From assembly GCA_902589185.1 (NCBI GenBank), contig CACIRZ010000010.1:1-42751 (forward strand): a stretch of DNA of 42,751 bases, in the 5' to 3' direction. Below, piece by piece: positions 5,126 through 23,734 of the stretch; position 1 is the first letter of the stretch; every line of letters begins with the position of its first letter. The position numbers and the translations under genes are program-made. The notes beneath the pieces were generated by a model that ran no database searches, was not told the DNA's origin, and saw only the letters and a list, made by a program, of their open reading frames with translations. The DNA comes from an uncultured SAR116 cluster alpha proteobacterium (lineage in GTDB: Bacteria; Pseudomonadota; Alphaproteobacteria; Puniceispirillales; Marisalimonadaceae).

Positions 5126-5178
5126 CTGTCTACCCTTTCGTGAAAATACTTCTAGCAAATTAATAAATATTTTTCTAG

Positions 5179-5865: not shown

Positions 5866-5879
5866 AAAATATCTCCTTT

Positions 5880-6389
5880 TTAATTTTCAATAAAATCTAT
5901 CTCTAGATCTAAAATTATTCGTTTATATTTGTAATCAATTTTTTTTAGAAAAGCTTTTCCCATTGGCAAATAATGGGTTTTATCATTTTTTTTTACCTGA
6001 ACTAACAAACCTGCTCCAAAATCATCCAAAGATACTACCTCACCAAAGTTTTCTTTACTTAAATTATAAACTTTAAAGTTCAACAAATCAGAATGATAAA
6101 ACTCCCCATCGAAAAGTTTTGGCAAACTTTTTCTAGATGTGAATAACTTTAATCCTTTAAAAAACTCAGCATCACTTCTTGTTTCAACATTTTCAATTTT
6201 GCAAACAAATACTTTTTTAAATTTTCTAATAAACTTTAATTTTATTGGATTTTCATAACTCTCTACGAAAATTTCTTTGAAAGAAAAAATATTTTCTGGA
6301 ATTTCTGTAAAGCTTATGAGCTTGACTTCTCCTTTAATACCATGAACTCCAACAAAGGATCCAATTTCAATTAAATTTTTCTTAGACAA
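5880..6389 (-). CDS. rimM: Ribosome maturation factor RimM (probable TTG start)
   Basis: RimM helps mature the 30S head and binds protein S19. The frame is open up to 6539, but the upstream part is just the rpsP repeat tail read in another frame (Arg/Leu/Lys-rich and unlike any RimM). The family-like sequence starts at 'LSKKNLIEIGSFVGVHGIKG', so I choose the TTG at 6389, giving 169 residues, the usual size. No in-frame ATG exists nearby. The TTG lies 7 bases past the TAG that would end an unbroken rpsP tail. The start could be a different rare codon, but the gene boundary is clear. The PRC-barrel region is the second half, ending in 'INFIEN'-like residues. Confidence 0.88.
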   Translation of the reverse strand: MSKKNLIEIGSFVGVHGIKGEVKLISFTEIPENIFSFKEIFVESYENPIKLKFIRKFKKVFVCKIENVETRSDAEFFKGLKLFTSRKSLPKLFDGEFYHSDLLNFKVYNLSKENFGEVVSLDDFGAGLLVQVKKNDKTHYLPMGKAFLKKIDYKYKRIILDLEIDFIEN

Positions 6390-6396
6390 AATTATT

Positions 6397-6522
6397 CTAT
6401 TCGTTTTTATCCTCTTCAGCTTTAATCTCTTCTTTAGCCGCCTCCTCAACTGGAGCTTCTGTAGCAGGTGCCTCTTCTGGAGGCGCGTCCTCAACTGGAG
6501 CTTCTGTAGCAGGTGCCTCTTC
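6397..6522 (-). other. In-frame continuation of the S16 repeat tail beyond a stop codon
   Basis: Directly after the rpsP TAA the same frame stays open for 41 codons to a TAG at 6397-6399. It encodes more of the same repeat ([15 protein letters not shown], then [15 protein letters not shown]) and a short charged end (EEIKAEEDKNE). The TAA matches an AAA lysine codon at the same place in another repeat unit (6613-6615), so one base change explains it. The TAG end sits 7 bases before the rimM start, which fits an ancestral gene boundary. It is either a real recent truncation or a base-call/assembly error. Confidence 0.7.
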
Positions 6523-6690
6523 TTAAGCAGCCTCCTCAACTGGAGCTTCTGTAGCAGGTGCTTCTTCTACAGTCGCTTCCTCAACTGGAGCTACTGCCGT
6601 AGGTGCCTCTTCTTTAGCCGCTTCCTCAACTGGAGCTTCTGCCGCAGGTGCCTCTTCTACTGCTGCCTCCTCTGCTGGAGCCGCTGACTT
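6451..6690 (-). repeat. rpsP: 45-bp tandem repeat in the rpsP tail
   Basis: On the plus strand the word TGGAG recurs at 6451, 6496, 6541, 6586, 6631 and 6676, exactly 45 bp apart. The three units nearest rimM share long identical stretches (such as CTGGAGCTTCTGTAGCAGGT), while the two toward the S16 core have diverged, so the rimM end has probably expanded most recently. In frame each unit is 15 residues. Slippage or recombination between units would change tail length without breaking the frame. Confidence 0.9.
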
Positions 6691-7020
6691 CTCTGCCGCT
6701 TCTGCTTCTCTTTCTTGCCTTTTCTTACCTGGAGCACTTTTAATTGGTTGATCTCTAATCACAGGTGCTTTTACTAAACCGTCAGATGATAGCATTTTTG
6801 CAACTCTTAATGTTGGCTGAGCGCCTTTTGATAACCAGTATTTTGCTCTTTCAACATCAAGAACTAATCTTTCAGCGTGGTCTTTAGCTACCATTGGATT
6901 ATATGAACCTAATCTTTCTATAAATTTTCCATCTCTTGGTGACAATGCTTCTGCAACTACGATTTTGTAAAAAGGTCTCTTCTTTGCTCCACCTCTAGAC
7001 AATCTTATTTTTAACGCCAT
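6523..7020 (-). CDS. rpsP: 30S ribosomal protein S16 with repetitive Ala/Glu/Pro tail
   Basis: The first 80 or so residues are a normal S16 ('[24 protein letters not shown]', '[13 protein letters not shown]', '[10 protein letters not shown]'). From about residue 105 the protein becomes an acidic, low-complexity tail built from a 15-residue repeat of the type [15 protein letters not shown], giving 165 residues against the usual 80-110. Tail extensions on S16 are known in alphaproteobacteria. The reading frame stops at a TAA (6523-6525) inside the repeat array, while the same frame continues with two more repeat units to 6397 (see separate entry). The first cistron of the trmD operon, it is 36 bp downstream of ffh. 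Confidence 0.95.
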
Positions 7021-7056
7021 TTTTTTTCCTTATAATTAAGTTATTGTTTAATAAAT

Positions 7057-8577
7057 TTATCTTCTTTTTTTAGATGGTTTTCCACCTAACCCTGGTAAAC
7101 CCATACCTCCAAATCGATTTGCCATATTACCTAGATTAGGCATATTACCACCCATCATTTTTTGTAATTCGGCCATTTTATTGGCATCCATAACTGAATT
7201 TTGACCATCCCCTAATCCAGGATTTGGACTTGCTCCTCCAAGTGAAGACATCATATTTTTTAATCCACCAAGACCACCCATTTTACCCATTTTTTTCATC
7301 ATACGAGCCATATCTTGTTGTTGTTTCACAAGTCTATTTACATCAGAGACAGCTGTTCCTGATCCTGAAGCAATTCTTTTTCTACGAGAAGCATTCAAAA
7401 TAGAAACATTTACTCTTTCTTTTTTTGTCATAGAATAAATTATAGCTTCTTGTTTTGAAATTGCTTTATCATTAAAATTATTAGCAGCCATTTGTTTCTG
7501 GAGCTTACCAATACCAGGAAGCATAGACATTATTCCACCTAAACCTCCCATTTTTTTTAACTGACCAATTTGTTTTAACATATCATTCATATCAAAACTG
7601 CCCTGTGACATTCTTTTCATCATTTGCGCAGCGTCTTCTTCTGCGATAGTCTCTGCAGCTTTTTCTACAAGTGAGACAACATCACCCATATCTAAAATTC
7701 TACCAGCAGCTCTATCTGGATAAAATGGTTCTAATCCGTCTAGTTTTTCAGAAACACCAACAAATTTTATAGGGCACCCAGTTACTGACCTCATTGATAG
7801 CGCTGCACCACCTCTTGCGTCACCATCAGACCGCGTTAAAACAACTCCTGATATTTTTATTAGCTCTGAAAAAGCTTTAGCTGTCTGGACCGCATCCTGA
7901 CCTGTCATTGCATCTGCTACTAATAAAGTTTCGGATGGTTTAGATAATTTAAAAACCTCTTTTGCCTCAGACATCATTGCTGTATCAAGTGTCGTTCTAC
8001 CTGCTGTATCAAGTATCAATACGTCTATTGCCTGTACTTTAGATGCGGCCATTGCTCTTTTTGTTATTTTCTCTGGGCTTTCACCATCAATTTCTGGAAG
8101 TACTAAAACTTCTGCTTGTTCACCTAATATCCTAAGTTGTTCTCTAGCTGCAGGCCTGTAAATATCAAGCGATGCAAGCATAACTTTCTTTCTTTTTTTT
8201 GATTTCAAATGAAAAGCTAACTTACCTGCAGTTGTGGTTTTACCAGAACCCTGAAGACCAACTAACAATATGACTGCAGGAGGAGCGTGGTCTATTAATA
8301 GCTCTGATTCTGATGAGCCAAGAACTTCTATTAAAACGTCATTGACAATTTTTATAACTTGCTGACCAGGTGTAACTGATCTAAGAACTTCTTCACCAAC
8401 TGCCCTAACTTTAACTTTATCAATAAATTCTCTGACGACTGATAGAGCAACATCAGCCTCTAGTAGAGCTGTTCTAACCTCTTTAAGTGCGTTTTCAACA
8501 TCACTTTCAGAGAGAGCTCCTCTTTTAGTGAGACCTTTAAAAACATTTCCAAGTTTATCAGTTAAGTTTTCAAACAT
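7057..8577 (-). CDS. ffh: Signal recognition particle protein Ffh
   Basis: Ffh binds 4.5S RNA and signal sequences of nascent inner-membrane proteins and docks with FtsY. The 506-residue protein has the N-terminal helical bundle, the GTPase domain with the P-loop 'GLQGSGKTTTAGKL' (residues 107-120), 'DTAGR' and 'TRSDGDARGG' (the usual T-K-x-D has R in place of K), and the methionine/glycine-rich M domain from about residue 330 to the end. The last 80 residues are an extended Met/Gly/Asn-rich tail. It starts the block ffh-rpsP-rimM-trmD-rplS. A promoter and a hairpin leader precede it. Confidence 0.98.
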   Translation of the reverse strand: MFENLTDKLGNVFKGLTKRGALSESDVENALKEVRTALLEADVALSVVREFIDKVKVRAVGEEVLRSVTPGQQVIKIVNDVLIEVLGSSESELLIDHAPPAVILLVGLQGSGKTTTAGKLAFHLKSKKRKKVMLASLDIYRPAAREQLRILGEQAEVLVLPEIDGESPEKITKRAMAASKVQAIDVLILDTAGRTTLDTAMMSEAKEVFKLSKPSETLLVADAMTGQDAVQTAKAFSELIKISGVVLTRSDGDARGGAALSMRSVTGCPIKFVGVSEKLDGLEPFYPDRAAGRILDMGDVVSLVEKAAETIAEEDAAQMMKRMSQGSFDMNDMLKQIGQLKKMGGLGGIMSMLPGIGKLQKQMAANNFNDKAISKQEAIIYSMTKKERVNVSILNASRRKRIASGSGTAVSDVNRLVKQQQDMARMMKKMGKMGGLGGLKNMMSSLGGASPNPGLGDGQNSVMDANKMAELQKMMGGNMPNLGNMANRFGGMGLPGLGGKPSKKRR

Positions 8578-9666: not shown

Positions 9667-10968
9667 TTATCTATTTGAATTTCGAATAGTTCCTAGCAAC
9701 CCATCAGAGTTAATTTCTAAAATTTTTGTAGAAACAATTGTGCACGCTTTTACATGTTCTTTTAATTTTATTTTTGAAAAATTTGTAGAATGACCAACTG
9801 AATTATTTTCTACTAAAACTTTTTGAGTGGTTCCAATCTGACTGACTAAAAACTTATTATGTTGTTTTTCAGCTAAATCTCTAAGTTCTTTAGCTCTATT
9901 TTGAATAATTTTTTTTTGGACTTGTGGCATATTTGATGCTGGAGTATTTTTTCTTTTAGAGTATGGAAAGACATGAATATATGTAATGTTAGCTTCTGTA
10001 ATTAGTTGTATACTCTTTTGGTGAGCTTTTTCATCTTCAGTAGGGAAGCCAGCTATAAAATCACCTCCGAACACAATATCATTTCTTCGTCTTTTTGCTT
10101 CTTTTACAAAATTAATTACGTCTCTATAAAGATGTCTTCTTTTCATTCTTTTCAAAATAATGTCATCACCATGTTGAATAGATAAATGAATATGAGGCAT
10201 TAGTCTTTCTTCATGTTCAAATGCATCCATCAAGTCAAAATCAACTTCAGCTGGATCAATGGAAGACAATCTAAGTCTATGCAAATTTGGGATATTTTTT
10301 AAAATTTTTTTTACTAACAATCCTAAACTAGGCTTTCCAAAAATATCAATACCCCAAGATGTTAAATCAACACCAGTGAGAACAATTTCTTTTACACCAT
10401 TTTTTAATAAAGAATTAATAGAGTTAATAACATCTTGAGTTGATACTGACCTGCTAGGGCCCCTTCCAAATGGAATAATACAAAATGTACACCTATGGTC
10501 ACATCCATTTTGAACTTGAACAAAACCACGTGTGTGTTTGTTGAATGATTCAACAAGATGCCCAGATGTACTTTTTACTTCCATAATATCTTGAACAAAT
10601 ACATTTTGATTTTGATGAATGCTATCTTCTGGTACAAATCTCTTCCAGAAATCTTCATCAAGCTTTTCTTTATTACCTATTACAAAGTCTACTTCTGGCA
10701 TGAAATTCCATTTTTGAGGATCTATTTGAGCAGCACAACCTGTAACCAAAATTTGAGCATCTGGTCTATTTCTTTTAGAAGATCTTATAGCCTGTCTTGC
10801 TTGACGTTCGGCTTCGCTAGTTACAGCGCATGTATTAAAAATTATTAAATCACTATGACCATTCTGACTGGCAAGGTCACTAATAACCTGACTTTCCCAT
10901 ATATTTAGCCTACATCCAAAAGTCTTGATATCAGGTAAAGAGTTTTTATTTTTTGAAGTAATTTTCAT
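9667..10968 (-). CDS. mtaB: tRNA t6A37 methylthiotransferase MtaB-type
   Basis: This radical-SAM enzyme adds a methylthio group to t6A37 of tRNA. The protein (433 residues) has the UPF0004 domain with cluster cysteines at 19 (KTFGCRLN), 47 (FNTCAVT) and 78 (TGCAAQ), and the radical-SAM CxxxCxxC at 156, 160 and 163 (CDHRCTFC). 'GCRLN' rather than 'GCQMN' at the first cysteine favours MtaB over MiaB. A TRAM-like C-terminus follows. The start abuts the dapF stop codon with no spacer. Confidence 0.93.
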   Translation of the reverse strand: MKITSKNKNSLPDIKTFGCRLNIWESQVISDLASQNGHSDLIIFNTCAVTSEAERQARQAIRSSKRNRPDAQILVTGCAAQIDPQKWNFMPEVDFVIGNKEKLDEDFWKRFVPEDSIHQNQNVFVQDIMEVKSTSGHLVESFNKHTRGFVQVQNGCDHRCTFCIIPFGRGPSRSVSTQDVINSINSLLKNGVKEIVLTGVDLTSWGIDIFGKPSLGLLVKKILKNIPNLHRLRLSSIDPAEVDFDLMDAFEHEERLMPHIHLSIQHGDDIILKRMKRRHLYRDVINFVKEAKRRRNDIVFGGDFIAGFPTEDEKAHQKSIQLITEANITYIHVFPYSKRKNTPASNMPQVQKKIIQNRAKELRDLAEKQHNKFLVSQIGTTQKVLVENNSVGHSTNFSKIKLKEHVKACTIVSTKILEINSDGLLGTIRNSNR

Positions 10969-11804: not shown

Positions 11805-12590
11805 TTAAAAATCAATATCAACTATAATCGGCACATGGTCCGAAGGCTTTTCCCATGACCTAGTGTCCTTATAAATAACACCTGACTTTACTAATGAAAA
11901 TAAATTTTTTGATATCCAAAAGTGATCAAGTCTTCTTCCTCTATTAGAAATTTCCCAATTTCTATTTCTATATGACCACCAAGAATAAAGTTTTTCTTTA
12001 TGTGGAACAAATTCCCTCATAATATCTACCCATGCGCCAGCCTGGATTAAGTCTAGTAAACTTTCTGTTTCTATTGGAGTATGCGATACCACGTTTAGTA
12101 ATTGTTTATGTGACCAGACATCTTGTTCTAAAGGGGCAATATTTAAATCACCAACTAAAATTTTATTTTTTTTTGTGTTTGATAAAAAATAATCTTTCAT
12201 TTCATTAATGAAAGAAATTTTATGCTCAAACTTTGGATTAATTGAAATATCTGGCTCGTCTCCACCTGCAGGTACATAAAAATTATGAAGTTCAATATTA
12301 TCAGTTATTTTGACATAAACGTGACGAGTATCGTCTTTTTTACACCAATTCAGATATCCAGTGTCTGTAAATTCATATTTTGAAATGATAGCAACTCCAT
12401 TGTAGGATTTTTCGCCTCTGTAATATTGGTGTTTCATACCCGCTTTTCTAAAAGCCTCACTTGGAAAGTTTTCGTCAGTTGTTTTTGTTTCCTGTAGGCA
12501 CATAACGTCTATATTTTGTTCATTTATAAACTTCAAAACATGATGTATTCTCAGCCTTACAGAGTTTATATTCCAAGTTGCGATCCTCAT
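11805..12590 (-). CDS. xth: Exodeoxyribonuclease III / AP endonuclease
   Basis: This enzyme cuts DNA at abasic sites in base-excision repair. I choose the ATG at 12590, giving 261 residues that open 'MRIATWNINSVRLR', the standard start; an in-frame ATG at 12620 would add ten residues unlike the family. Active-site motifs seen are 'NIDVMCLQETK', 'VGDLNIAP' and the terminal 'PSDHVPI'. All point to a working metal-dependent endonuclease. It is the last core gene before the glycan island. Confidence 0.96.
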   Translation of the reverse strand: MRIATWNINSVRLRIHHVLKFINEQNIDVMCLQETKTTDENFPSEAFRKAGMKHQYYRGEKSYNGVAIISKYEFTDTGYLNWCKKDDTRHVYVKITDNIELHNFYVPAGGDEPDISINPKFEHKISFINEMKDYFLSNTKKNKILVGDLNIAPLEQDVWSHKQLLNVVSHTPIETESLLDLIQAGAWVDIMREFVPHKEKLYSWWSYRNRNWEISNRGRRLDHFWISKNLFSLVKSGVIYKDTRSWEKPSDHVPIIVDIDF

Positions 12591-12624
12591 TGAAAAACTC
12601 GTACTCCAAAAATACTCCAAATAT

Positions 12625-12741
12625 TTAATCTTTTACTATACACTTGAACGCACACATTACTAATGTTTCAACAATAATACCTATTGGCAAAATACAGATT
12701 AAAATAAGAAAGGCAACGAAAATAGAAATTAACAAATCCAT
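12625..12741 (-). CDS. Small membrane protein, 38 residues
   Basis: I found this by hand translation. It reads MDLLISIFVAFLILICILPI, one strong hydrophobic segment of about 25 residues, then a short tail with cysteines and basic residues ending CIVKD. AAAGG lies about 9 bases before the ATG, a plausible ribosome-binding site. It lies 34 bp upstream of the xth start, so it may share its message. I do not recognise the family. The coding call rests on the RBS, the clean membrane segment and the tight placement. Confidence 0.5.
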   Translation of the reverse strand: MDLLISIFVAFLILICILPIGIIVETLVMCAFKCIVKD

Positions 12742-12836
12742 TATATTAAACCTTTACTTTGTTTCTTATAATCTTTTACTTCTTTTTTAGTTTCTTTTTT
12801 GATTGAATAGAAAGGTAAAGGGAAAATCTTCAACAA
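12741..12836 (-). CDS. Possible short cistron overlapping the small membrane protein (non-ATG start)
   Basis: This frame encodes about 31 residues, LLKIFPLPFYSIKKETKKEV, continuing as a lysine-rich end. Its TAA overlaps the next gene's ATG as TAATG, a pattern often seen in translationally coupled genes. The only start candidates are TTG codons at 12836 or 12833, with no convincing ribosome-binding site. It may be a real tiny gene, the tail of a decayed one, or chance. Confidence 0.2.
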   Translation of the reverse strand: MLKIFPLPFYSIKKETKKEVKDYKKQSKGLI

Positions 12837-13050: not shown

Positions 13051-13710
13051 CTATTTAATTTTTTTAAACAAAATATCTTTTTCAAATTCTTTAAAAATGT
13101 CATATCCAAGATCATTTAGAAAATTTACCAGATCATTATCGTTTGTTATTGTTTTCTCAATAAAAATTACTGGTTTGTCTCTTTTAATTGTTTCATAAGC
13201 CCCTTTTAAGAGATTAATTTCATAACCTTCAACGTCAATTTTAATAAAACTAATATTGCTTAAATTAAAAGAATCTAAAGTCCTAATTTTTTCATCACCA
13301 TTTTTATCTTCAATGACATGAGCATTGAATGCTGCATATCCAAATTTTTCAATTGCCCATACATTATTACCAACTGAACAATTAATTGCTTTGTTACCCA
13401 AGCCAAAGGGAAATAGTTTATAGTTACTAATATGAAAATTTTCCATATTTTTTAAAAAACAAATTCTGTGAGCATTTACTAGTTCAAAAGCATATATATT
13501 TTTAAAGTAGGGTTGTAACAAATATGTCCAAAAGCCGTAGCAAGCACCACAATCAATAGCGTTATCAAATGTGTCTAATATGGATAATATATTTTTTATG
13601 TATTTAGCATCTTTTCTTACAAAATCAATTTGTTTACTTTTTAAAATTGTAGCTTTATCTGGTTCAAATACTGTCCATTCTTTACCATCAGCAATAATAT
13701 GTTTAAACAT
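13051..13710 (-). CDS. FkbM-family methyltransferase
   Basis: The protein (219 residues) has an S-adenosylmethionine fold: 'NAIDCGACYGFWTYLLQPYF' (about 51-70) is motif I and 'ISFIKIDVEGYEINLLKGAY' (about 153-172) is the FkbM signature. FkbM enzymes O-methylate sugars or polyketides. Among glycosyltransferases it most likely methylates a surface sugar. AGGAAG about 7 bases before the ATG supports this start. It shares little beyond motifs with the two other FkbM-type genes here, so these look like separate acquisitions or old paralogues. Confidence 0.85.
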   Translation of the reverse strand: MFKHIIADGKEWTVFEPDKATILKSKQIDFVRKDAKYIKNILSILDTFDNAIDCGACYGFWTYLLQPYFKNIYAFELVNAHRICFLKNMENFHISNYKLFPFGLGNKAINCSVGNNVWAIEKFGYAAFNAHVIEDKNGDEKIRTLDSFNLSNISFIKIDVEGYEINLLKGAYETIKRDKPVIFIEKTITNDNDLVNFLNDLGYDIFKEFEKDILFKKIK

Positions 13711-13929
13711 TTTACATCTTCCTATTTTTCATATAACCATAAAAAATTTTTTGACTTGATTTAAATAAAGTTGTGGTCACTATATTTTTTTTTACTATTA
13801 ACTTTATAAAAAGTTACAAGTTCATTACCTTTTTTCTATTTTTAATTATGGAAACTTTTCATACATAACCAATCCACATTATAATAATTGAAAAATAATT
13901 AAAAAAGTAACTATTTCAGAAATAATAAT

Positions 13930-14751
13930 TTATGGTTTAACTTGAAAATTGTAACTATTAACTGAGGCATAAATATTAGCTACATTTTCAATTTTATAAT
14001 TTTGTAATTCTACGGGAACGATTTTTTCTGATATAATAAAAAATTTATAATTAAACTTTGCAAGAAATTTAATGATATCTATTTTGTTAGCTTCTCTCAT
14101 TTCAATAATTATATGTGGTTTAAAATTTTTTATAATATTTTCTGCTCCCAAAAGAACTTTATAATCTTCTCCTTCAGTGTCAATTTTTATCCCATTAATT
14201 TTTTTATTTCCACTTATTGAAATATCATCAAGTTTAATTACATCAATGTTTTCTCCCGACGATGCGATTCTACCTCCCTTTGACATAAATGTCTTGTCAG
14301 GATGGCTCATAAATAAACCTTGACCTGAATAATTTGATGCAGCTCCTAAAAAACAGGAATTATTTTTGAAAAGATTATTTAATCTTAAATTTGATTTCAT
14401 TCTTCCTAAATTAATAAAGCTTGGCTCAATTGATATAAGAAAATTATTTTCATTAGAGAGTAGGCCTACAATAGTGTATAGGCCTGTATGAGACCCTACA
14501 TCAATAAAAACGCCCTCATTTTCAGTGATTTTAGACCATAGATCTAATCCTACTTTATCATGATGACCTTTCCAAAAATACGACACAACTGACGTATCAT
14601 CGTTTTTTATACAAATAAGATTAAACTTATATTTCCCCGCGGTAAAATTATATATACCTGTTAATGCTGGGAACTTATTGAAGTCGCTTACACTTAATTC
14701 TTCATAATTTAAAAAATTTTTAGATTTAAATATTTCAGCTTCTTTTGTCAT
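13930..14751 (-). CDS. FkbM-family methyltransferase
   Basis: 273 residues. 'GVFIDVGSHTGLYTIVGLLS' is the SAM-binding motif I and 'INGIKIDTEGEDYKVLLGAE' is the FkbM signature, followed by 'KPHIIIEMREAN', the usual closing strand. The N-terminal 70 residues ('LTGIYNFTAGKYKFNLICIK') precede the fold and have no name I know. It is transcribed on the minus strand and diverges from the next FkbM gene (97-bp gap). Likely target is a hydroxyl on an O-antigen or capsule sugar; that is inferred from neighbours only. Confidence 0.8.
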   Translation of the reverse strand: MTKEAEIFKSKNFLNYEELSVSDFNKFPALTGIYNFTAGKYKFNLICIKNDDTSVVSYFWKGHHDKVGLDLWSKITENEGVFIDVGSHTGLYTIVGLLSNENNFLISIEPSFINLGRMKSNLRLNNLFKNNSCFLGAASNYSGQGLFMSHPDKTFMSKGGRIASSGENIDVIKLDDISISGNKKINGIKIDTEGEDYKVLLGAENIIKNFKPHIIIEMREANKIDIIKFLAKFNYKFFIISEKIVPVELQNYKIENVANIYASVNSYNFQVKP

Positions 14752-14848
14752 GTGCTACATTCAAACATATATAATAAAAATTATCAAAACTTTAAACTTT
14801 TATAAATATCCTATTTAAATTAAAATTTTTTTGAAATAATCATTTATT

Positions 14849-15754
14849 ATGGAATATCAAGAATTTATTAAAAGAACAAACAATGCAATAATAAATAAAA
14901 GTAAAGATGAAATTCTTTTAAATAATGAAAATAGGTTTTTAAGAGCAAATCTTATTTTACAACTGCTAAAAAACACTTCTCAGTATCTTAAATTTTTTGA
15001 TTTTCAAAACAACATCATTTTCGAGAAAAACGATCCTTTTATATTGATTAATGATCTGAAATTTAAACTTGATACATTTTTTTTCTTAAAAAAATCTGGA
15101 ACTCCTCATATCTCAGATGTAAAAAACACAATATCTTTTATTAAAAGTTATAATTTAAACCCTAAAGTAATAATTGACCTTGGAGCTTGTTGGGGAGAAT
15201 ACAGCTTATTTTTAGCCAAAGAATTCAAAAAATCAAAGATTTACAGCATTGAAGGCTCTCAAAAGAACTATGAAATTTTATTAACTAATTTAAAATATAA
15301 CTCATCCATTTCAAAATTTGTACTTCCATATAACCTAATTATTTCAAATCAAAATGGAATACAAGAAATCACAAATGAAATTGGCACAATGAATACAGTA
15401 AGAGATTTTTCTACAAATTTTAAAAATTTTACAAAAATGACTTCAAGTACACTCACTAATTTTTGTAATAAAAATTCTATAGAACGTATTGATTTTATAA
15501 AAATTGATATAGAGGGAAGTGAGTTAAAATTACTTAATGATTTAAATAACTTGTCAATAAGATCGATTCAGATTGAATTAATCAATTATAACTCTATAGA
15601 AAAAATTGTACATTTTATAAAAACACTATCAAATAATTTCCAATATGTGAAATATGATAATCAAGAAATAATTAATTTAGACCAAACAATAGATTTAATA
15701 AAAAAAACTTTACAAAAAAAACCAACTATTGATATTTTTTTAATAAAAAAATGA
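14849..15754 (+). CDS. FkbM-family methyltransferase
   Basis: 301 residues, plus strand. Motif I is 'VIIDLGACWGEYSLFLAKEF' (about 108-127), with 'IYSIEGSQKNYEIL' as the second strand, and 'IDFIKIDIEGSELKLLNDLN' is the FkbM signature. An N-terminal extension of about 100 residues has no recognised domain. Its last codons overlap the next gene by ATGA, so the two are translated together. No strong ribosome-binding site precedes the ATG. Confidence 0.8.
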   Translation: MEYQEFIKRTNNAIINKSKDEILLNNENRFLRANLILQLLKNTSQYLKFFDFQNNIIFEKNDPFILINDLKFKLDTFFFLKKSGTPHISDVKNTISFIKSYNLNPKVIIDLGACWGEYSLFLAKEFKKSKIYSIEGSQKNYEILLTNLKYNSSISKFVLPYNLIISNQNGIQEITNEIGTMNTVRDFSTNFKNFTKMTSSTLTNFCNKNSIERIDFIKIDIEGSELKLLNDLNNLSIRSIQIELINYNSIEKIVHFIKTLSNNFQYVKYDNQEIINLDQTIDLIKKTLQKKPTIDIFLIKK

Positions 15755-16659
15755 TCCAAATTTGTCTAACAAAATTTACTAATGGACCATGGGAAGAAAT
15801 GACAATTAAAGCCTTTAACAAAGCTTTGTCATACTACAAAAATAAATTTGAAATAGATATAATAAAAGGCTATCCCCAAAAAAATTATGATATAATCATT
15901 CTTGTTGGTATTAGGTCAATCGTCAAAAGAAAATTAGATCCAAAAAAAATTTTACCATATTGTAAGAAACTTGTCGATATGGGGGATAGCGGCATGGATC
16001 CAAGAACTAATTTTGAAGATCTCTATTTTTACTTTCTACCATCAAAAAACAAATTGCATGATCATTATGTATATTTACCTAAATATATAATTGCTGATGA
16101 ACTTTATCCAGAAAAATATAATGATGATAAACTTACAATTTATATTGATCATTTTAAATATCAAAATGAAGATGAAAGGGAAGTATCGATTAAATCAATA
16201 AATAAGATTTTTGATTCAATTCACAAGTCTAATATTCCCTTAAGAATATTTTATCATACATCAAAAGGAATAGAATTAAATAGATTGACACCAGAAATTA
16301 CAAAAACAAATGTACAAATCGCAAAATTTCTACCCTTTAATGAAATAGTTAAATATTATAGAAAAACCGATATTTTCTTTCCAACTCACAGAGAAACACA
16401 AGGAATGGTTGCACAAGAAATTGCAGCTTGTGGCGGCATTACTATGTTACAAGCATGGATGTACCCTACAAATACACTTAGTCAATTCGCACATATATTA
16501 TACAAAGAGGAGGATTATATAGATTTTCTATCCATAAAAGAAAATATAAAAAAAATAACGCATGAAAAAATTAGAAATCACACTTTAGAAAAGTGTAATT
16601 TTGAAAAATTTAAAAATACCTTATGCCAAGCTTTATTAAATTTAATAAGAGTAACTTAA
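15751..16659 (+). CDS. Glycosyltransferase, GT-B-like
   Basis: 302 residues, start overlapping the preceding gene by four bases. The C-terminal half has features of family-1/4-type transferases: 'FLPFNEIVKYYRKTDIFFPT' and then 'HRETQGMVAQEIAACGG', the place where an acidic residue and glycines bind the nucleotide-sugar. The N-terminal half is short. It probably adds a sugar to a surface polysaccharide intermediate in the cytoplasm; donor and acceptor are not readable. Confidence 0.65.
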   Translation: MIQICLTKFTNGPWEEMTIKAFNKALSYYKNKFEIDIIKGYPQKNYDIIILVGIRSIVKRKLDPKKILPYCKKLVDMGDSGMDPRTNFEDLYFYFLPSKNKLHDHYVYLPKYIIADELYPEKYNDDKLTIYIDHFKYQNEDEREVSIKSINKIFDSIHKSNIPLRIFYHTSKGIELNRLTPEITKTNVQIAKFLPFNEIVKYYRKTDIFFPTHRETQGMVAQEIAACGGITMLQAWMYPTNTLSQFAHILYKEEDYIDFLSIKENIKKITHEKIRNHTLEKCNFEKFKNTLCQALLNLIRVT

Positions 16660-16709
16660 ATAATTTTCTTAATAGTAAAGTATTTTATAAATTTTAGATA
16701 TTATTAAAC

Positions 16710-18413
16710 CTAAAAATTCATTTCATATGTTTTTTTCCAAGTCATAAAATGTAATAGAGGTGCCCATCTTTTATCTTCAGGCAGTTTTTTTATATCAGTT
16801 ATTTGACTAGCGATTCTATTTATTTCGCTACATTCTTTTTTATACTGGGATCTCCATAAATTTATTGGAGCGGTCCAGCCTGTTTTAGACTTGTCAATTA
16901 TGCTTTGTGGTAAGATGTTTTTGTAGGAATTCCTACTAATACTTTTTAAACTTTCTAATGAGTTATTCATCTTAAATGAAGAGTGAATATTCATGCAATA
17001 ACTAATCATTTTTTTACTGGCAAATGGAAATCTACCTTCCATTGAGTAAAGCATTCCTAGTCTATCATTTCTTCTAAAATAGTCCTCTGAACATAAGCCC
17101 TGCTGATCTAATCTCATATAGCTTGATACAGGGTCATCTTTATCCCATAACGAAACTGGAAAAATTGTGTCAATTAATAAATCTATCAATTCGTTTATAT
17201 TTATCTTCATTTTAAATGATGGTGGTCTTATCAATCTTTTAGTAAGCCAAAACAATACGCATTGTCTGTATGATTTAAAATTTTGTCTGTAAGCATTTAT
17301 ATATGAGGGATAACCACAAAGTATCTCATCACCCATATCACCTGCTAAAGTTATTACAATTCCATGTTTACTCATAACATCATTCATATGTGCGTACATT
17401 GGTATACTAGGATTATATAGTGGCTCTTCTAAAGCTTCAACACTAGTCTTCCAATATTTTGCATATAATTTTGGTGAGTGAATAACCATTGTATGATTAA
17501 AACCAGAAACATGAGCTAATTTTTTTGCTTCAGAACTATCAGAATTATAATCTTCATTAGGATCAGCTGGACAAGGCTGAATATGATTAGTAAATGTTTT
17601 CTGATTTGTATATTTCTTAGCATGAATGGCAATCATTGCTGAATCAAGTCCACCACTAAGAAATGTTCCAATTGGTCTTGTGCCAATTAAACTTTCTTGA
17701 ATTGTCTTATCAAATACATCTCTAAACTCTTCTTCCTTAAATGATAACCCTTTGCCACCTAATACTATATTTCTTTTTACTTGAATTAATTTTTTAGTCT
17801 TAATGTCATATTTCATTGTCTCACCAGGCATTACTTTTTTTATACCTCTAAAAAAACTATGATTTGACACATTCAAACCTGAAATATTCCAACATGCAAA
17901 TGCTGTATGGTCTATATTTCTTGAACCTGACACTATATCAAGCAATCCTTTAGCTTCAGAACCAAAAACAATTACTCCATTATTTTGAGAATAATATAAT
18001 GGTTTTATACCTGCATGATCTCTACTTAAAAAAAGTTGTTTTGTTTTTATATTCCACAACACAAAGGCATGCATTGAATCGATTTGATCAATAAAATCAA
18101 TACCAAACTCGTCTAATCCCCAGGCTAATAATTCTGTATCACATTGAGTTTTAGGTTTAAAATTTGGGTATCTATTGCATAAATCATAATAATTAAAAAT
18201 TTCCCCATTATATATTAAAATATTTCCCTTATTTGTCTTCCATGGTTGAATTCCTTGTAATGGAGTATCTGTAATTGATAGTAAATTATGTCCTAAAGTC
18301 ACATTTTCATCACAGTAAGTATCATTGTTGTCAGGTCCTCTATAATGACACTTACGCATGTATGATTTTACCCAAGAGAGGTTTCTCTCAGATATTCCAT
18401 AAATTCCACACAT
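16710..18413 (-). CDS. Asparagine synthase (glutamine-hydrolysing) type amidotransferase
   Basis: 567 residues with both domains: an N-terminal glutaminase with Cys2 after the initiator Met ('MCGIYGI') and 'IYNGEIFNYYDL', then a synthetase domain with the ATP loop 'SGGLDSAM' (253-260) and 'GDMGDEILCGYP'. In general these make asparagine. In polysaccharide clusters close relatives (WbpS-like) amidate uronic-acid sugars, and the position between glycosyltransferases favours that. Both readings remain open. The gene is convergent with the preceding GT (50-bp gap) and divergent from the next. Confidence 0.85.
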   Translation of the reverse strand: MCGIYGISERNLSWVKSYMRKCHYRGPDNNDTYCDENVTLGHNLLSITDTPLQGIQPWKTNKGNILIYNGEIFNYYDLCNRYPNFKPKTQCDTELLAWGLDEFGIDFIDQIDSMHAFVLWNIKTKQLFLSRDHAGIKPLYYSQNNGVIVFGSEAKGLLDIVSGSRNIDHTAFACWNISGLNVSNHSFFRGIKKVMPGETMKYDIKTKKLIQVKRNIVLGGKGLSFKEEEFRDVFDKTIQESLIGTRPIGTFLSGGLDSAMIAIHAKKYTNQKTFTNHIQPCPADPNEDYNSDSSEAKKLAHVSGFNHTMVIHSPKLYAKYWKTSVEALEEPLYNPSIPMYAHMNDVMSKHGIVITLAGDMGDEILCGYPSYINAYRQNFKSYRQCVLFWLTKRLIRPPSFKMKININELIDLLIDTIFPVSLWDKDDPVSSYMRLDQQGLCSEDYFRRNDRLGMLYSMEGRFPFASKKMISYCMNIHSSFKMNNSLESLKSISRNSYKNILPQSIIDKSKTGWTAPINLWRSQYKKECSEINRIASQITDIKKLPEDKRWAPLLHFMTWKKTYEMNF

Positions 18414-18521
18414 TAAAATCCCATAAGATAATTGCTATTTATTAAAATAATTTACATTAAAAAATTTAAACATAACAAAAAATAAATTTAAAATCTTTTA
18501 AAAATATTTTAATTAGTATAT

Positions 18522-19421
18522 ATGAAAAAATTAATTTCCTACATAACTGATAAACAATTAACAACAGAAATTGTTAGTATTTTTTCAAATGCTGTGAACA
18601 TACACATTAAAGGTTGGCAATCCGAAATTGTTCACATAAATGACTTTTTAAAAAATGGAATACCTACAAACGTACAGGCTATAGCCACTCAAGGTATCCT
18701 GAGAGGTACTGGTCATCTTCTAAAAGAAGCTGCAAGTAAAAATTTAGATAGATATTATATTGATCATGCTTATTTCAACGCTGGTTATAAAGGTGATTTT
18801 TGGTTAAGAATTTCGAAAAATAAACATACTATTAATAATTTAAAAAAAGTATCAAGTTTTAGATGGGAAAAATTTTTTTCTAAAAATAACTTTATAATAC
18901 CATGGAAAAGTTTTTCTGAAAGAGGAAAAAATATTTTAATTATACCTCCCACTAACGCAATTTGTTGGTATTTTAATGCGAATAATTGGGAAAAAAACAT
19001 ACTTAATTTTCTTAGAGAAACTCTATCAACGGAAGATTTTAAAAAAGTAAAAATTAGAGTTAAACCAAATGAACCTATAGTAGACTCAAAAGGCAAATAT
19101 ATAGGTTTGAAGGAAAACAAAGAAACTAAAAATATTCCCTTAGAAGATGATTTAAACGATGCTTCAATTGTAATTGCTTATAATAGTCAAGTAGCACTAG
19201 ATGCTACTTTAAGAGGGTTACCAGTAATTGTTGATAAACATAATTGCTGTTATAGTTTAAGTTTCAAACTATCAGATTTAAAATATGGTTTGAATAACCC
19301 GATTTTTGAAAATGAGCCAAAAAGAGAAGAATTATGTAAATGGCTTTCTTACTGTCAATTTAAACTAGAAGAAATAAAAAATGGATTAGCTTGGAAAACA
19401 ATCAATAACTTTCAAATATAA
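18522..19421 (+). CDS. Capsule-synthesis-like protein of unknown activity
   Basis: 299 residues. The C-terminal half, 'VKIRVKPNEP' followed by 'DASIVIAYNSQVALDATLRG' then 'LPVIVD', resembles the donor-binding part of KpsC/KpsS-like polysaccharide proteins. The N-terminal half 'AIATQGILRGTGHLLKEAAS' is unknown to me. No signal peptide or membrane segment is apparent. The 108-bp gap before it is divergent from the amidotransferase gene and probably holds promoters for both. A 13-bp gap links it with the next transferase. Confidence 0.5.
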   Translation: MKKLISYITDKQLTTEIVSIFSNAVNIHIKGWQSEIVHINDFLKNGIPTNVQAIATQGILRGTGHLLKEAASKNLDRYYIDHAYFNAGYKGDFWLRISKNKHTINNLKKVSSFRWEKFFSKNNFIIPWKSFSERGKNILIIPPTNAICWYFNANNWEKNILNFLRETLSTEDFKKVKIRVKPNEPIVDSKGKYIGLKENKETKNIPLEDDLNDASIVIAYNSQVALDATLRGLPVIVDKHNCCYSLSFKLSDLKYGLNNPIFENEPKREELCKWLSYCQFKLEEIKNGLAWKTINNFQI

Positions 19422-19434
19422 ACGATGATGAATA

Positions 19435-20244
19435 ATGTCAATATCAAATAATAAATATAGTGCGGTAACTACTTTTAATTTGAACAAGCACCCATACGGT
19501 GTTGAGATGATTAATAGTTTTTTTGCTAACTGGCCTGATGAAGTTACGTTAACAGCATTTATTGAAAAAAGCTCAGGGTTAGATGATAGGGCAGTAAAAT
19601 CTAAAATTATAATTAAAGATTTTTATAAACATGTGCCAGAATATAAATATTTTGTTGAAAAATTTAAGGATAAAGAAAAATATACTGATGATTTTCGTTT
19701 TAATGTTTTTAGATTTGCTCATAAAGTATATGCAATTGCATCAGCACTTAAAAATACAAAAGCTAAATACTTAATCTGGCTAGATGCTGATATCAAGACA
19801 TACAAAAAAATTCCTTTAGAATTTCTTGATACACTTGTATCTGACAACACTTACATGACTTATCTGGGTAGAGAAAGTATTTCAATCAAACATTTAACCT
19901 ATTCTGAATGTGGCTTTTTAATATTTAATACTGAACATCCCATACATAAATTGTTTTGGCAGAATATGATGAAAATGTATGATAATGGTGATTTGTTTAA
20001 AGAAAAAGAATGGCATGATAGTTATATTTTTGATGTGGTAAGAAAAAATCTAGAAAAAACTAAAAGTATAAAAAATTTTGATATAACCGGCCATGGTTTA
20101 GTAAACGTCAAAAATGACGATCATGTCTTTGTATCAAGTGTATTAGGCAGATTCATGGATCATAAAAAAGGAAATAGAAAAGATAGTAAGTGGTCTTTTG
20201 AACTTATCACCAGAATAAAAGAAGAAAAAAAAAATAAATCATAA
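19435..20244 (+). CDS. Glycosyltransferase-like protein, GT-A fold
   Basis: 269 residues. 'KYLIWLDADIKTYKKIPLEF' (about 112-131) holds a DxD motif (DAD) on a strand end, the metal/UDP-sugar site of GT-A transferases, and 'SECGFLIFNTEHP' is typical of the following acceptor region. It is the second gene of a plus-strand pair. Its final bases overlap the end of the convergent gene at 20239 by six bases. Sugar unknown. Confidence 0.65.
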   Translation: MSISNNKYSAVTTFNLNKHPYGVEMINSFFANWPDEVTLTAFIEKSSGLDDRAVKSKIIIKDFYKHVPEYKYFVEKFKDKEKYTDDFRFNVFRFAHKVYAIASALKNTKAKYLIWLDADIKTYKKIPLEFLDTLVSDNTYMTYLGRESISIKHLTYSECGFLIFNTEHPIHKLFWQNMMKMYDNGDLFKEKEWHDSYIFDVVRKNLEKTKSIKNFDITGHGLVNVKNDDHVFVSSVLGRFMDHKKGNRKDSKWSFELITRIKEEKKNKS

Positions 20245-20463
20245 TAGTTTAATTAATGGTAATAATTGAACCAAGCCGAAGATAGTTATGAATGTACCAA
20301 TAACTAACTTAGTGGTTGGTTTAATAAAAGGTGTCTTAGTGAAATCCTCATTTTTCTTTTTGCCTTGAACTACACCATATATTATTAATGATACGCCAAT
20401 TAAAAAGATAATAAGTCCGTATTCCCATGACATCATAATATCAATACGTAGACTTTTTTTCAT
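20239..20463 (-). CDS. Small two-helix membrane protein
   Basis: 74 residues with two hydrophobic segments, 'GLIIFLIGVSLIIYGVVQG' (about 16-34) and 'LVIGTFITIFGLVQLLPLI' (about 53-71), joined by a basic loop. The start could also be Met10 or Met11 (MMSWEYG). It lies between two transferase genes on the minus strand, 6 bp past the end of the GT8-like gene. It may be an accessory protein for glycan assembly; no family is recognised. Confidence 0.6.
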   Translation of the reverse strand: MKKSLRIDIMMSWEYGLIIFLIGVSLIIYGVVQGKKKNEDFTKTPFIKPTTKLVIGTFITIFGLVQLLPLIKLL

Positions 20464-20469
20464 ATTAAA

Positions 20470-21165
20470 TTACTTTAAAATTTCTTTTTTAAAGTATCCA
20501 TCTAGCAAATTAGAAAATGAGTTTTTCCAATAAGATGAAAAACTTTTGTTACTGTATTCCTTAAAACAAGGTGTTCCTATAGTATAATGAATTAAATTAA
20601 CGTCATCTTTTTCTTCGTATTCCATAGCCAACCAATTCCATTTTTTATCTATGTTTCCTATCTCTTCATCATTTAACCAATTGAAACGGTGTAAAAAAGC
20701 TCCAGTTTGATTTTGAATGAAATTGGGTGTCAATATTTTGTGCTTTTCATGAGAACAATTCCAAATAATAACACTTGACCAGTTTTTTCTTGGATAATCC
20801 TCATTTTTATTTCCCCAATATTTCTTAGCTATCTTAGTTTTATAATCATGTTGTACAACTTGAACAGCATATTTATCATTTCTTAAATCCCAAAGTTTTT
20901 TTATATCTTCAACACAAATCATGTCTCCATCTACATATATTGCCCACCCTTCAAAATTCATTAGATATGGAACTAAAAATCTAGAATAAATAAATTCATT
21001 ACTTCCGTCAGTATGCACTTCACTATATCCCGATAAAGATTTCATGTTTAAAGGCATGAACCTAACTGGAATTGAAGTCTTTTCTATAACACTTTGAACA
21101 AACGTGTGATAAGCCACGGCTTCTTTTTGATCAAATCCAACTAAAAGGTCAATTACGTTATCCAT
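20470..21165 (-). CDS. Glycosyltransferase, GT8-like
   Basis: 231 residues, beginning 'MDNVIDLLVGFDQKEAVAYH'. 'GWAIYVDGDMICVEDIKKLW' holds the DGD metal-binding motif of GT-A/GT8-like enzymes, and 'HYTIGTPCFKEY' near the end matches the usual His-x-x-Gly-x-x-K-like closing motif loosely. The start overlaps the end of the TPR-glycosyltransferase gene by 8 bases, so both are made together. Confidence 0.7.
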   Translation of the reverse strand: MDNVIDLLVGFDQKEAVAYHTFVQSVIEKTSIPVRFMPLNMKSLSGYSEVHTDGSNEFIYSRFLVPYLMNFEGWAIYVDGDMICVEDIKKLWDLRNDKYAVQVVQHDYKTKIAKKYWGNKNEDYPRKNWSSVIIWNCSHEKHKILTPNFIQNQTGAFLHRFNWLNDEEIGNIDKKWNWLAMEYEEKDDVNLIHYTIGTPCFKEYSNKSFSSYWKNSFSNLLDGYFKKEILK

Positions 21166-23104
21166 TAGTTCTTTCCTTTATTATTTTTTTTAGTTTTTCA
21201 ATTGGATAATCCCAACTATCTATGTTTTTTTGTTCAATTATTTGTATTGAATTATACCAAAAACATCTATCTTTATACGAACTCCAATACCAAAGTTTAC
21301 CTTTTCCTTTTGGTAATAAAAGGAATGTATCTTTACCTAATGCTCCACTTATATGAGCATTGGTGTTACTGACTGTAATCACAAAATCACATAAATCAAT
21401 TAGTGAGGTTAAACCATTTAAATCGTTAAAATTGTCTATATGTTCTATTTTGCTTATTTTTATACCAGTATTTTTAAAAAATCTATCTCTTTCGTCATTT
21501 GTATCATTATACTGTAAGTCTAAAAATTCTATATTTTCTAAAGATAAAATAGGTTTCAAAATTTCTAAACTTATACTTTTCTTATCTCCTATATCTTCGT
21601 TTTTACTGATCCACGACAAACCACAAATAAATTTCTTTTTAGTTTGAAAATTATTTTTTAATTCATTTGTCAAACCTTTTTCTGCTATTATATAATTTTT
21701 ATATTTTGTTAGATATGAAGCATCTTTTAAGAATAAGCACCCCAAATCCCCTATAGGCAATTGATAGTCAATTTTATAATTTTTATAATTTTCATTTTTT
21801 TCTAAAAATTTTATTTTTGGATAAATTCTATTTATAATACCATGAAGTCTAGGATCAATTTTAATAAATAAATTATCAACATAATGCTCTAAATCTTTTA
21901 AAAACCTCAGAAAAAGGATTTGATCACCTATACCTTGTTCACTCCATAAAAGTAAATTTTTTTTATCCTTATTAAGATTAAATTCTGGTAATTTTATATT
22001 TAATTTATTTGAGTTAAACTTGTTAGCTAGCCATCTATATTTATAGTTTATCCAACCTTCATTGAAATTAGCCTGTGCTAATTGACATTGAGCTAAATTG
22101 TAATGAGCATCATAATTATTATTATTACTTCTTATAGATAGTTCATAGATATTTTCAGCTTCTATAAAATCACCTATAAAATAATTTAGTGCAGCTAAAT
22201 TATTTAATGCCATCTTATTATTAGGCTTAATCTGAAGTGATTTATCGTAATTAAGTTTTGCGTTAGTAAAGTCGCCAATTGCTAAAAAATTATCACCTAG
22301 TAAAGTGTATGTATCACTATTTATATTATTTAGATTTATGGACTCATAATAAAAGGTATTAGCTAAATTAAATTGTTTTTTTTGAGAGTAAGCCAAACCT
22401 AATATTGATTTTAAAGTACTGTCTGATCCATTCTTCTTTTCAAATTTTTGGACATACAAAATAACATCATTTTCTTTTTTACATTTGATTAAATTATCAC
22501 AATAATCATATATTACATCTCTGCTAACATTTTTGTAACTAATTAATTCTTTATAAATTTGATCTGATTTTGAAAATTCTTTTAAATTAGTAAGTAATTT
22601 AGCCATTTTATGGTCTATATCTCTATTTTTAAGAGATAATATCTTTGCATAATATAAAACATTTAGAGCATCTTCTAACTTATTAATCTTTATCAATGTA
22701 TCTGAGAGATTAAGATAAAATGCGCTTTCTAGAGGATGATTTTGAATAGCTAATCTGTGAAAATAAACGGCTTTTTTGTAATTTCCCTCAAAAGACCAAA
22801 AATTAGCTAATAATGAAATAGTTAGTATATCATTTTGATTTTTTTCTAGAGTATCTGATAGTTTTTTAATTACAATCGATGATTTTCCTGATTTCACCAA
22901 ATTAAAAAAATTTTCAATTTCTTTTTTTGAATGTGTTTGAATTATAGGTATTTTAAACCTTTTTACCTTTTTATTTATTTCTTCTTCTAATCTTTTATTT
23001 TTAGGAAACTGAACCCAAATCTCCTTAAATATATCTAATCCTCCGAAAAAATTTTTTTCTAAAAATAGCTTGTTCCCTTTTATAAATAGATCATTTACAG
23101 ACAT
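21158..23104 (-). CDS. TPR-repeat protein with C-terminal GT9-like transferase domain
   Basis: 648 residues in two halves. About residues 60-355 are tetratricopeptide helices ('AVYFHRLAIQNHPLESAFYL', 'NAKLNYDKSLQIKPNNKMAL', 'YDAHYNLAQCQLAQANFNEG'). From about 380, 'LLLWSEQGIGDQILFLRFLK' starts a domain resembling heptosyltransferase-like (GT9) proteins, with 'SLIDLCDFVITVSNTNAHIS' and 'GALGKDTFLLLP' near the end. Such TPR-GT fusions are common in marine proteobacterial glycan islands. The likely role is transfer to a protein or lipid acceptor recognised by the TPR part; not proven here. Confidence 0.75.
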   Translation of the reverse strand: MSVNDLFIKGNKLFLEKNFFGGLDIFKEIWVQFPKNKRLEEEINKKVKRFKIPIIQTHSKKEIENFFNLVKSGKSSIVIKKLSDTLEKNQNDILTISLLANFWSFEGNYKKAVYFHRLAIQNHPLESAFYLNLSDTLIKINKLEDALNVLYYAKILSLKNRDIDHKMAKLLTNLKEFSKSDQIYKELISYKNVSRDVIYDYCDNLIKCKKENDVILYVQKFEKKNGSDSTLKSILGLAYSQKKQFNLANTFYYESINLNNINSDTYTLLGDNFLAIGDFTNAKLNYDKSLQIKPNNKMALNNLAALNYFIGDFIEAENIYELSIRSNNNNYDAHYNLAQCQLAQANFNEGWINYKYRWLANKFNSNKLNIKLPEFNLNKDKKNLLLWSEQGIGDQILFLRFLKDLEHYVDNLFIKIDPRLHGIINRIYPKIKFLEKNENYKNYKIDYQLPIGDLGCLFLKDASYLTKYKNYIIAEKGLTNELKNNFQTKKKFICGLSWISKNEDIGDKKSISLEILKPILSLENIEFLDLQYNDTNDERDRFFKNTGIKISKIEHIDNFNDLNGLTSLIDLCDFVITVSNTNAHISGALGKDTFLLLPKGKGKLWYWSSYKDRCFWYNSIQIIEQKNIDSWDYPIEKLKKIIKERTNG

Positions 23105-23116: not shown

Positions 23117-23734
23117 TCAATTATTTGGCTCAGGAAAAGTATCTGGAAAAAATAACACATGAGAAAGTTTATTATTATATTTTGCATTTTGAATTAATAC
23201 AGTTGTGTTTTCTCCCAAACTATCTTGAATTATCCATTTTTTTAAACTAAATGGATTTTCTGAAAATTCTAAAACTAAACTTTCTTGTTTTTCATTATCT
23301 GGGCTTTTTAATTTTAATGATATAATGCCCGCCTCAGTACTATATTCTGCTTTTATATTTTCGTTACTTAAAAATGACTTGTTTTCTAATAAAATAGCAA
23401 AAGGTGTACTCTTAACAGGAATATTGTTAGTTGTTTTAGCGCCTCTATCTTGAATAACTATCCAAAATCCTTTACAAGTAATTAAAAGATTATTTGGGTT
23501 TTCATAATCAATTCTCAACTTACCTGGTAAATCCAAATATATTCTACCATTGCTTACGTTTCCTGAGGGACTTACCTGAATAAAATTTGCTTCTAGTGTG
23601 ATAAGATTTTTAAAAAATTTTTCAATTTGTAGAATAGCTGATTGTTTTTTCTCAAAAGCATAAGATGTTTGGCAAATTAGAATTATAAAAAAAATATATA
23701 AAAAAAAATTTATCTTGATCAATAATTGTTTCAA
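23117..23734 (-). CDS. lolA: Outer-membrane lipoprotein carrier protein LolA
   Basis: LolA carries lipoproteins across the periplasm. The 205-residue protein has a signal peptide ('FFLYIFFIILICQTSYAF', cut expected after TSYA) and the LolA barrel with 'LITLEANFIQVSPSGNVSNG' and 'GRIYLDLPGKLRIDYENPN'. Its ATG touches the end of ftsK. The lolA-ftsK order is conserved in alphaproteobacteria, which supports the call. Adjacent lipoprotein traffic genes are not in the window. Confidence 0.92.
   Translation of the reverse strand: MKQLLIKINFFLYIFFIILICQTSYAFEKKQSAILQIEKFFKNLITLEANFIQVSPSGNVSNGRIYLDLPGKLRIDYENPNNLLITCKGFWIVIQDRGAKTTNNIPVKSTPFAILLENKSFLSNENIKAEYSTEAGIISLKLKSPDNEKQESLVLEFSENPFSLKKWIIQDSLGENTTVLIQNAKYNNKLSHVLFFPDTFPEPNN

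Follow-up and report, generated by a model that had tools for sequence, protein, structure and literature searches.

Four described systems, each drawn on here from part of its source, come closest to the locus reported in this study, a glycan island between the genes xth and lolA of an uncultured SAR116 cluster alphaproteobacterium (order Puniceispirillales), which is bordered at xth by the relic of an integrative element. DusA-associated integrases and their islands insert inside the 5′ end of dusA, replace this end together with the upstream region and leave a 5′ remnant of the gene behind (PMC4482086). Replacement flexible genomic islands keep a constant place in each genome and carry genes of the surface-glycan type with differing content, for which selection by phages has been proposed (PMC4033161). 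Likewise, a low-GC subclade of SAR116 harbours a hypervariable envelope-glycan region at a constant place (PMC8547437). Finally, FlmG of Caulobacter, a flagellin glycosyltransferase of 596 amino acids, combines an N-terminal TPR domain with a C-terminal GT-B domain (PMC7591256).

The locus is located on contig 10 (CACIRZ010000010.1) of a draft genome comprising 1.47 Mb in 80 contigs (62% complete), and the whole stretch of 42,751 nucleotides that was analysed is referred to as the window. It was compared with related genomes, here denoted by G numbers, nearly all of which are drafts, many of them 50-90% complete. Taken together, the results indicate that the region is probably a layered hot spot, in which a lolA-anchored glycan locus with changing cargo is joined by xth-targeting elements at the other border. 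Two points, the relic of the xth element at the right border and the finding that gene-free relatives are partly deletion scars, go beyond the preliminary description of the locus, which had been made from the letters of the window alone.

Traces of an xth-targeting element

In the window, xth is directly preceded by remains of the right end of an xth-targeting integrative element, which comprise a WYL regulator tail, a small membrane-type open reading frame (ORF) and a paired TTTGGAGTA repeat (Table 1). Full-length WYL regulators are present before xth in G053 (PF13280 and PF25583), G075 and G071, and 2.4 kb from xth in G062. Moreover, relatives contain 5′ fragments of xth. The fragment-bearing genomes were picked via searches of 61 and 136 genomes, and 61 stretches were scanned; the fragment count is a lower bound. 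At least nine fragments were observed in at least eight genomes, and all of those found start at nucleotide 1-2 and end at nucleotides 94-113, corresponding to codon ~32-38. When full-length xth was employed as query over 61 genomes, the internal partial copies were N-terminal ones only, the remaining partial matches being situated at contig edges.

An intact gene for a tyrosine integrase directly follows the xth fragment in G053 and G101, the two proteins being 79% identical to each other, and in G101, the match to a PHROG integrase (E 3e-26) is stronger than that to Pfam. In G115, the fragment is followed by the N-terminal relic of an integrase (E 7e-4). The integrase scan of genome contigs matched one record, the G101 contig (Candidatus Puniceispirillum sp. 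AH-135-E14). In G053, two xth fragments and an intact xth stand in a row, as would be expected for tandem insertion.

The xth gene itself is a mosaic in relatives. The G034 gene is 94-95% identical to that of four sister genomes after nucleotide 115, whereas nucleotides 1-105 are only 75-78% identical to the same genes. In the 5′ part, it shares 91, 88 and 86% identity with the genes of G023, G073 and G075, respectively, as opposed to 79, 65 and 67% over the rest. Diagnostic sites switch at nucleotides 96-112 (G034), 105-135 (G011), 69-105 (G004) and 93-123 (G113), with stray sites of the opposite type on either side. In cross-genus pairs (g1 versus g13) with a right end in both members, the 5′ part is 82.7% identical versus 66.5% for the rest (n=50); the corresponding values are 75.0 and 67.0% when the right end is present in one member (n=115), and 71.8 and 67.9% when it is present in neither (n=38). 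Only one of 5000 label shuffles attained the observed difference. The breakpoint is located within the CLQETK codons, and these include the residue that we take to be the catalytic glutamate of exonuclease III. By analogy with these relatives, the first ~37 codons of the window's xth may be derived from an element. Thus, a 5′ remnant of the target at the far end, an integrase at the attachment site and a target 5′ end supplied by the element, the hallmarks of targeting of a 5′ end, were all found in relatives.

Several observations weigh against this part of the layered hot spot. Both intact integrases match PF00589 below its curated cut-off (G053, E 7e-5; G101, E 5e-5), the N-terminal relic after the fragment of G113 is weak (E 0.044), and five of the nine fragments are followed by no integrase trace. 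An integrase at close range was detected in only two of 136 order genomes, in none of 385 class genomes (a sample that lacked a positive control) and nowhere in a scan of viral contigs. The window itself contains neither an xth fragment nor an integrase relic, and relatives of the WYL regulator are also located away from any known xth in G031, G018 and G073. With regard to the mosaic, the label shuffles ignore relatedness. Moreover, the xth fragment of G034 is 83% identical to the gene's own new 5′ end and 72-73% identical to the 5′ end of the sisters' xth, and is therefore not as a single recent insertion predicts.

Two further observations were made in relatives. On contig 2 of G074 (48000-67500), an xth 5′ fragment at ~9800-10080 is preceded by an element right end, with no lolA nearby; this arrangement perhaps reflects tandem insertion or rearrangement. 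Another integrase of ~447 amino acids, 25-26% identical to the one at xth, is encoded in five members of the genus, on G023 contig 23, G009 contig 12, G014 contig 5, G036 contig 8 and G003 contig 18.

The glycan locus at lolA

lolA was detected in 53 of the 61 genomes (the window's own genome included) and xth in 58, some xth matches being to a paralogue only. A site was regarded as closed when lolA and an intact xth are located on one contig, which applies to 31 family genomes. Thirteen of these carry the TPR/GT8 gene pair that adjoins lolA in the window, two carry other cargo, namely an acyltransferase in G011 and a methyltransferase (PF13489) in G034, and 16 contain no ORF of at least 100 amino acids. 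The distance between lolA and xth amounts to 4.1-13.6 kb with the TPR/GT8 pair and to 63-279 bp at the gene-free sites. Across the 31 sites, the chromosomal place is constant and the content differs between relatives, as in flexible islands, whereas the presence of functionally similar genes in all strains was not observed in this species-level comparison. The variable island that had been proposed is borne out by these data, as identical content in all relatives was not seen. The possibility that every gene-free site is an ancestral empty site was ruled out: codons from the start of the TPR gene are retained between lolA and xth in G005, G002, G014 and G031, and the island was therefore lost there. 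The lolA-side spacer of the occupied site in G034 equals the spacer of the empty sites in G001, G016 and G032.

The gene set of the window is matched only by G023, in which FkbM methyltransferase 1 is degraded to profile positions 101-172; large parts of the set are common to G066 (same genus) and to G076, G079 and G080 (another genus). The identity of the TPR protein across 19 relatives follows that of lolA (r 0.89), and the corresponding values are 0.89 for xth, 0.82 for the 299-aa protein, 0.79 for FkbM3 (6 genomes) and 0.70 for GT8; those for FkbM2 (0.44, 5 genomes), the 269-aa protein (0.42) and AsnB (0.29, 7 genomes including G073 with a distant AsnB) are lower. AsnB is 73-75% identical to its counterparts in both G066 and G076/G079/G080, whereas the identity of lolA is 57% to G066 versus 38-41% to the other genus. 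Since the TPR protein tracks lolA, in contrast to AsnB, the 269-aa protein and FkbM2, we read the locus as a presumably old core that is anchored at lolA and part of whose cargo has been exchanged, the cargo samples being small. The lolA end of the island is fixed and the cargo on the xth side changes. PF05050 matches are found at 56 places in 27 of 58 family genomes, and 16 of the 56, assigned by position, are at lolA-xth, which by an informal estimate is far above chance for a locus of ~10 kb in 1-2 Mb. On contig 10 of G053, the lolA-xth interval encodes a 727-aa protein in which TPR and sulfotransferase parts are fused, an LpoB-like protein and a fragment that resembles a kinase/cytidylyltransferase.

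An ordinary replacement-type flexible island, the cargo of which is swapped by homologous recombination via the flanks (ftsK-lolA and xth-dapF), is an alternative explanation of this pattern, with the xth element being an unrelated later visitor. In line with this explanation, the TPR protein and xth follow lolA, in contrast to AsnB and the 269-aa protein, and the mechanism has been described for other aquatic prokaryotes in the part of the source drawn on (PMC4033161). In addition, G066 holds much of the glycan set without the element: only 13 bp separate its last FkbM gene from xth, and the right end is absent. The glycan locus is therefore not dependent on the element, a further point against the layered hot spot. 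However, recombination via the flanks leaves the xth fragments, the neighbouring integrase and the breakpoint inside xth unexplained. We regard it as a plausible account that falls somewhat short of being probable, and flank recombination and insertion at xth could both operate.

The TPR protein fixed at lolA was examined by structure prediction. To this end, amino acids 353-648 were aligned solely with relatives from viral contigs (29 of 80 loci, one row containing a stop being dropped), and the AlphaFold2 (AF2) model of this part reached a pLDDT of 86.2 and a pTM of 0.88. The top solved matches in Foldseek are the GT9 protein 3tov (E 1.4e-7) and the heptosyltransferase 1psw (E 4.7e-7, TM 0.61), with WaaC and TibC likewise matched. 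Because these matches are GT9 proteins or heptosyltransferases, the 648-aa protein is read as TPR repeats followed by a predicted GT9-like GT-B domain. Distant relatives of the TPR-glycosyltransferase are present in viral contigs (341 of 440 candidate stretches), and the architecture is therefore not special to this island. The GT8 gene is present in 24 of 136 order genomes. Relatives of GT8 were found in 18 phage records, all of them distant (best 42%; Pelagibacter phage Mosig, 41%), and distant relatives of AsnB and of the GT9-like domain in 15 and 5 phage records, respectively.

The layout of an N-terminal TPR and a C-terminal GT-B part is the same as in FlmG, with 648 versus 596 amino acids (PMC7591256, as far as the source was drawn on). 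The locus might thus be a protein-glycosylation island, in which the TPR domain selects the protein and the glycosyltransferase domain adds the sugar. However, flagellin (PF00669) is present in 15 of the 22 family genomes having the GT8 gene versus 28 of the 36 without it, and G022 (93% complete) contains the island and zero flagellin match. FkbM genes are also located near flagellin genes elsewhere in G021, G033, G007 and G076. An island devoted to flagellin was ruled out by these counts, and we consider a locus of the FlmG kind unlikely; some protein substrate other than flagellin is a variant of this explanation.

The TPR/GT8 pair is inverted beside lolA on contig 13 of G026, the xth of which is located on a different contig. 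Contig 84 of G135 (1-8000), a genome of family f2, contains lolA, GT8, the TPR protein and xth resembling those of family f1, and a second xth is present on G135 contig 16; the segment may stem from bin contamination or transfer.

With regard to gene content, ORF calling in positions 13051-23104 yielded nine ORFs of 219-648 amino acids plus one of 74 amino acids. Because the latter recurs next to the GT8 gene in relatives, the ten genes of mixed orientation, on both strands between xth and lolA, that were listed in the preliminary description stand. The same holds for its three FkbM genes, all of which pass the curated cut-offs of PF05050 and NCBIfam TIGR01444. The genome of the window, as far as its 62% completeness extends, contains no other PF05050 match. 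The FkbM assignment follows family resemblance, and the role in sugar O-methylation is putative. The 269-aa protein is presumably a glycosyltransferase, judged from its LDAD motif; PDB profile searches with the 299-aa and 269-aa proteins yielded zero matches. The GC content of the island genes is 26.7% versus 31.9% in the 23 flanking genes of the window (Mann-Whitney p 7e-4), GC3 is 18.9 versus 19.5, and as the latter values are nearly equal, composition by itself is weak evidence of foreign origin.

Pfam revealed no match of the Wzx/Wzy type in any of the nine large ORFs and no recognised gene for sugar-nucleotide synthesis among the island ORFs. Furthermore, none of the 51 PF04932 and 13 PF01943 places in 58 family genomes is at lolA-xth, as compared by hand. 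A polymerase or flippase concealed within the locus was ruled out on these grounds, in agreement with the earlier statement that both are lacking. The suggestion of a decorating cassette and not a full O-antigen operon held in part: it fits the locus, but a Wzy_C/ligase-type gene is present on contig 6 of the same genome (G000). A true O-antigen locus with polymerase and flippase encoded elsewhere, which would be compatible with this gene and with others of its type that share a contig with xth in G002, G014, G017, G023 and others, ~48-50 kb beyond it, is quite improbable given that 16 of 31 family sites are without a gene of at least 100 amino acids and that the island lacks recognised genes for sugar-nucleotide synthesis.

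Table 1. Position and supporting evidence of features at the lolA-xth locus of the window
Feature	Position	Strand	Evidence
xth, exodeoxyribonuclease III; right border and candidate integration target	11805-12590	-	TIGR00633 and TIGR00195 above cut-off
First ~37 codons of xth	12480-12590	-	ends of xth fragments and breakpoints of the mosaic near nt 94-113 in relatives
Degraded right end of xth-targeting integrative element	12592-12797	-	nhmmer, profile from six other genomes, E 2.1e-47
Paired TTTGGAGTA repeat, part of right-end relic	12598-12621		
38-aa membrane-type ORF, part of right-end relic	12625-12741		
WYL regulator tail, part of right-end relic	12741-12782		
Putative FkbM-type methyltransferase 1	13051-13710	-	PF05050, 54.5 bits (cut-off 22.7)
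Putative FkbM-type methyltransferase 2	13930-14751	-	PF05050, 51.4 bits (cut-off 22.7)
Putative FkbM-type methyltransferase 3	14849-15754	+	PF05050, 48.6 bits (cut-off 22.7)
Weak GT4-type glycosyltransferase	15751-16659	+	PF00534, E 5.7e-4, below cut-off
Asparagine-synthase-like (AsnB-type) amidotransferase	16710-18413	-	PF00733/PF13537; TIGR01536, 289.3 versus cut-off 267.1
299-aa protein	18522-19421	+	weak TIGR04326 match (surface carbohydrate biosynthesis), 19.9 bits, far under cut-off 250
269-aa protein, putative glycosyltransferase	19435-20244	+	LDAD motif; no Pfam match
74-aa small ORF with hydrophobic stretches, conserved next to GT8 gene	20239-20463	-	only weak Pfam matches
GT8-family glycosyltransferase, adjoining the TPR gene at the observed lolA-xth loci	20470-21165	-	PF01501, E 3.4e-8
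648-aa TPR protein with predicted C-terminal GT9/heptosyltransferase-like GT-B domain; lolA-side anchor	21158-23104	-	Pfam TPR and model
lolA; left border	23117-23734	-	PF03548 above cut-off; TIGR00547 below its cut-off

A second integration relic is present elsewhere in the window. The gene for tRNA-Gly(GCC) is intact at 32902-32976, and its 3′ part recurs as a 70-nt copy at 36995-37064 (96% identity) and as an 18-nt copy at 34098-34115. The copies (32902-37064) enclose small ORFs, including two tandem DUF6974 genes, which suggests tandem insertion at the tRNA gene.

Relation of the glycan locus to the element

In relatives, the element is accompanied by genes of the decorating type. A methyltransferase gene stands between the intact xth and an xth fragment in G034 (PF13489) and in G021 (PF05050, FkbM), and the acyltransferase of G011 is located just upstream of the element right end. 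Because such genes stand at the element in these three genomes, insertions can carry decoration genes.

A layered hot spot would then operate as follows. In the first layer, seen family-wide, the TPR-GT9 and GT8 genes are fixed by lolA and followed by changing glycosyltransferases, an AsnB-type amidotransferase and FkbM methyltransferases, and whole glycan loci have been lost by deletion in some relatives. In the second layer, seen in relatives and as a relic in the window, tyrosine-integrase elements enter xth within codons ~32-38. A 5′ fragment of the gene stays behind, and the element provides xth with a new upstream region and new first ~37 codons; at its right end, the element carries the WYL regulator. 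Decoration genes can be gained or lost at the xth site through single or tandem insertion, through decay and through deletion. The encoded enzymes may build a short glycan on a protein or a surface sugar and O-methylate or amidate it, residue by residue and without polymerisation. The variation might be maintained by selection on exposed surfaces, perhaps exerted by phages. As proposed in the preliminary description, the sugars might be heavily O-methylated, which might block phage receptors.

More specifically, SAR116-type bacteria might host a family of integrative elements that attach at the catalytic QETK codons of xth. Each insertion might bring in surface-decoration genes and, at the same time, replace the first ~37 codons of the exonuclease III gene along with its upstream region, and the island of the window would have grown in this way beside an older lolA-anchored glycan locus. 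We put this forward tentatively, as a rather doubtful extension. If true, surface change and the control of a DNA-repair enzyme would be coupled at one site. The layered hot spot would provide a concrete site and mechanism for the gain and loss of surface-glycan genes in a group of ocean bacteria, and xth would join the protein genes into whose 5′ end elements integrate; the effect of such insertions on the expression of the repair gene thereby becomes testable. No publication on xth as an integration site was found in the literature searched, most subscription journals lying outside it. Automatic annotation would overlook the element because xth remains intact.

Comparison with known systems

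The 648-aa protein resembles FlmG in its N-terminal TPR and C-terminal GT-B architecture (PMC7591256, known in part), a likeness drawn from architecture and not from direct sequence comparison. Unlike FlmG, the island shows no link to flagellin, the association that marks the FlmG type, and unlike an O-antigen cluster, it contains no gene recognised as Wzx or Wzy.

Judged from its low GC content, the genome of the window probably belongs to the low-GC SAR116 subclade (~30% GC) as far as this is described in the part of PMC8547437 drawn on. In that subclade, outer-envelope genes are likewise variable at a constant place; the main text names neither lolA nor xth, and identity with the lolA-xth locus is not implied (PMC8547437). 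The constant place, the surface-glycan type of genes and the varying content are also shared with flexible genomic islands, as portrayed in the portion of PMC4033161 referred to. In contrast to these, the gene-free state is the commonest here and consists partly of scars, and one border bears the signs of site-specific integration (PMC4033161).

The closest known behaviour to that of the xth element is the replacement of the 5′ end by dusA islands, a comparison by analogy that draws on part of PMC4482086. The insertion site is xth instead of dusA, and the likeness is thus one of behaviour only. In contrast to the dusA islands, the target comprises codons ~32-38 of xth, a WYL regulator is located at the right end, and the window holds only relics (PMC4482086). 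In both systems, however, a conserved protein-coding gene would be targeted inside its 5′ end, which would be replaced together with the upstream region, with a 5′ remnant left behind (PMC4482086).

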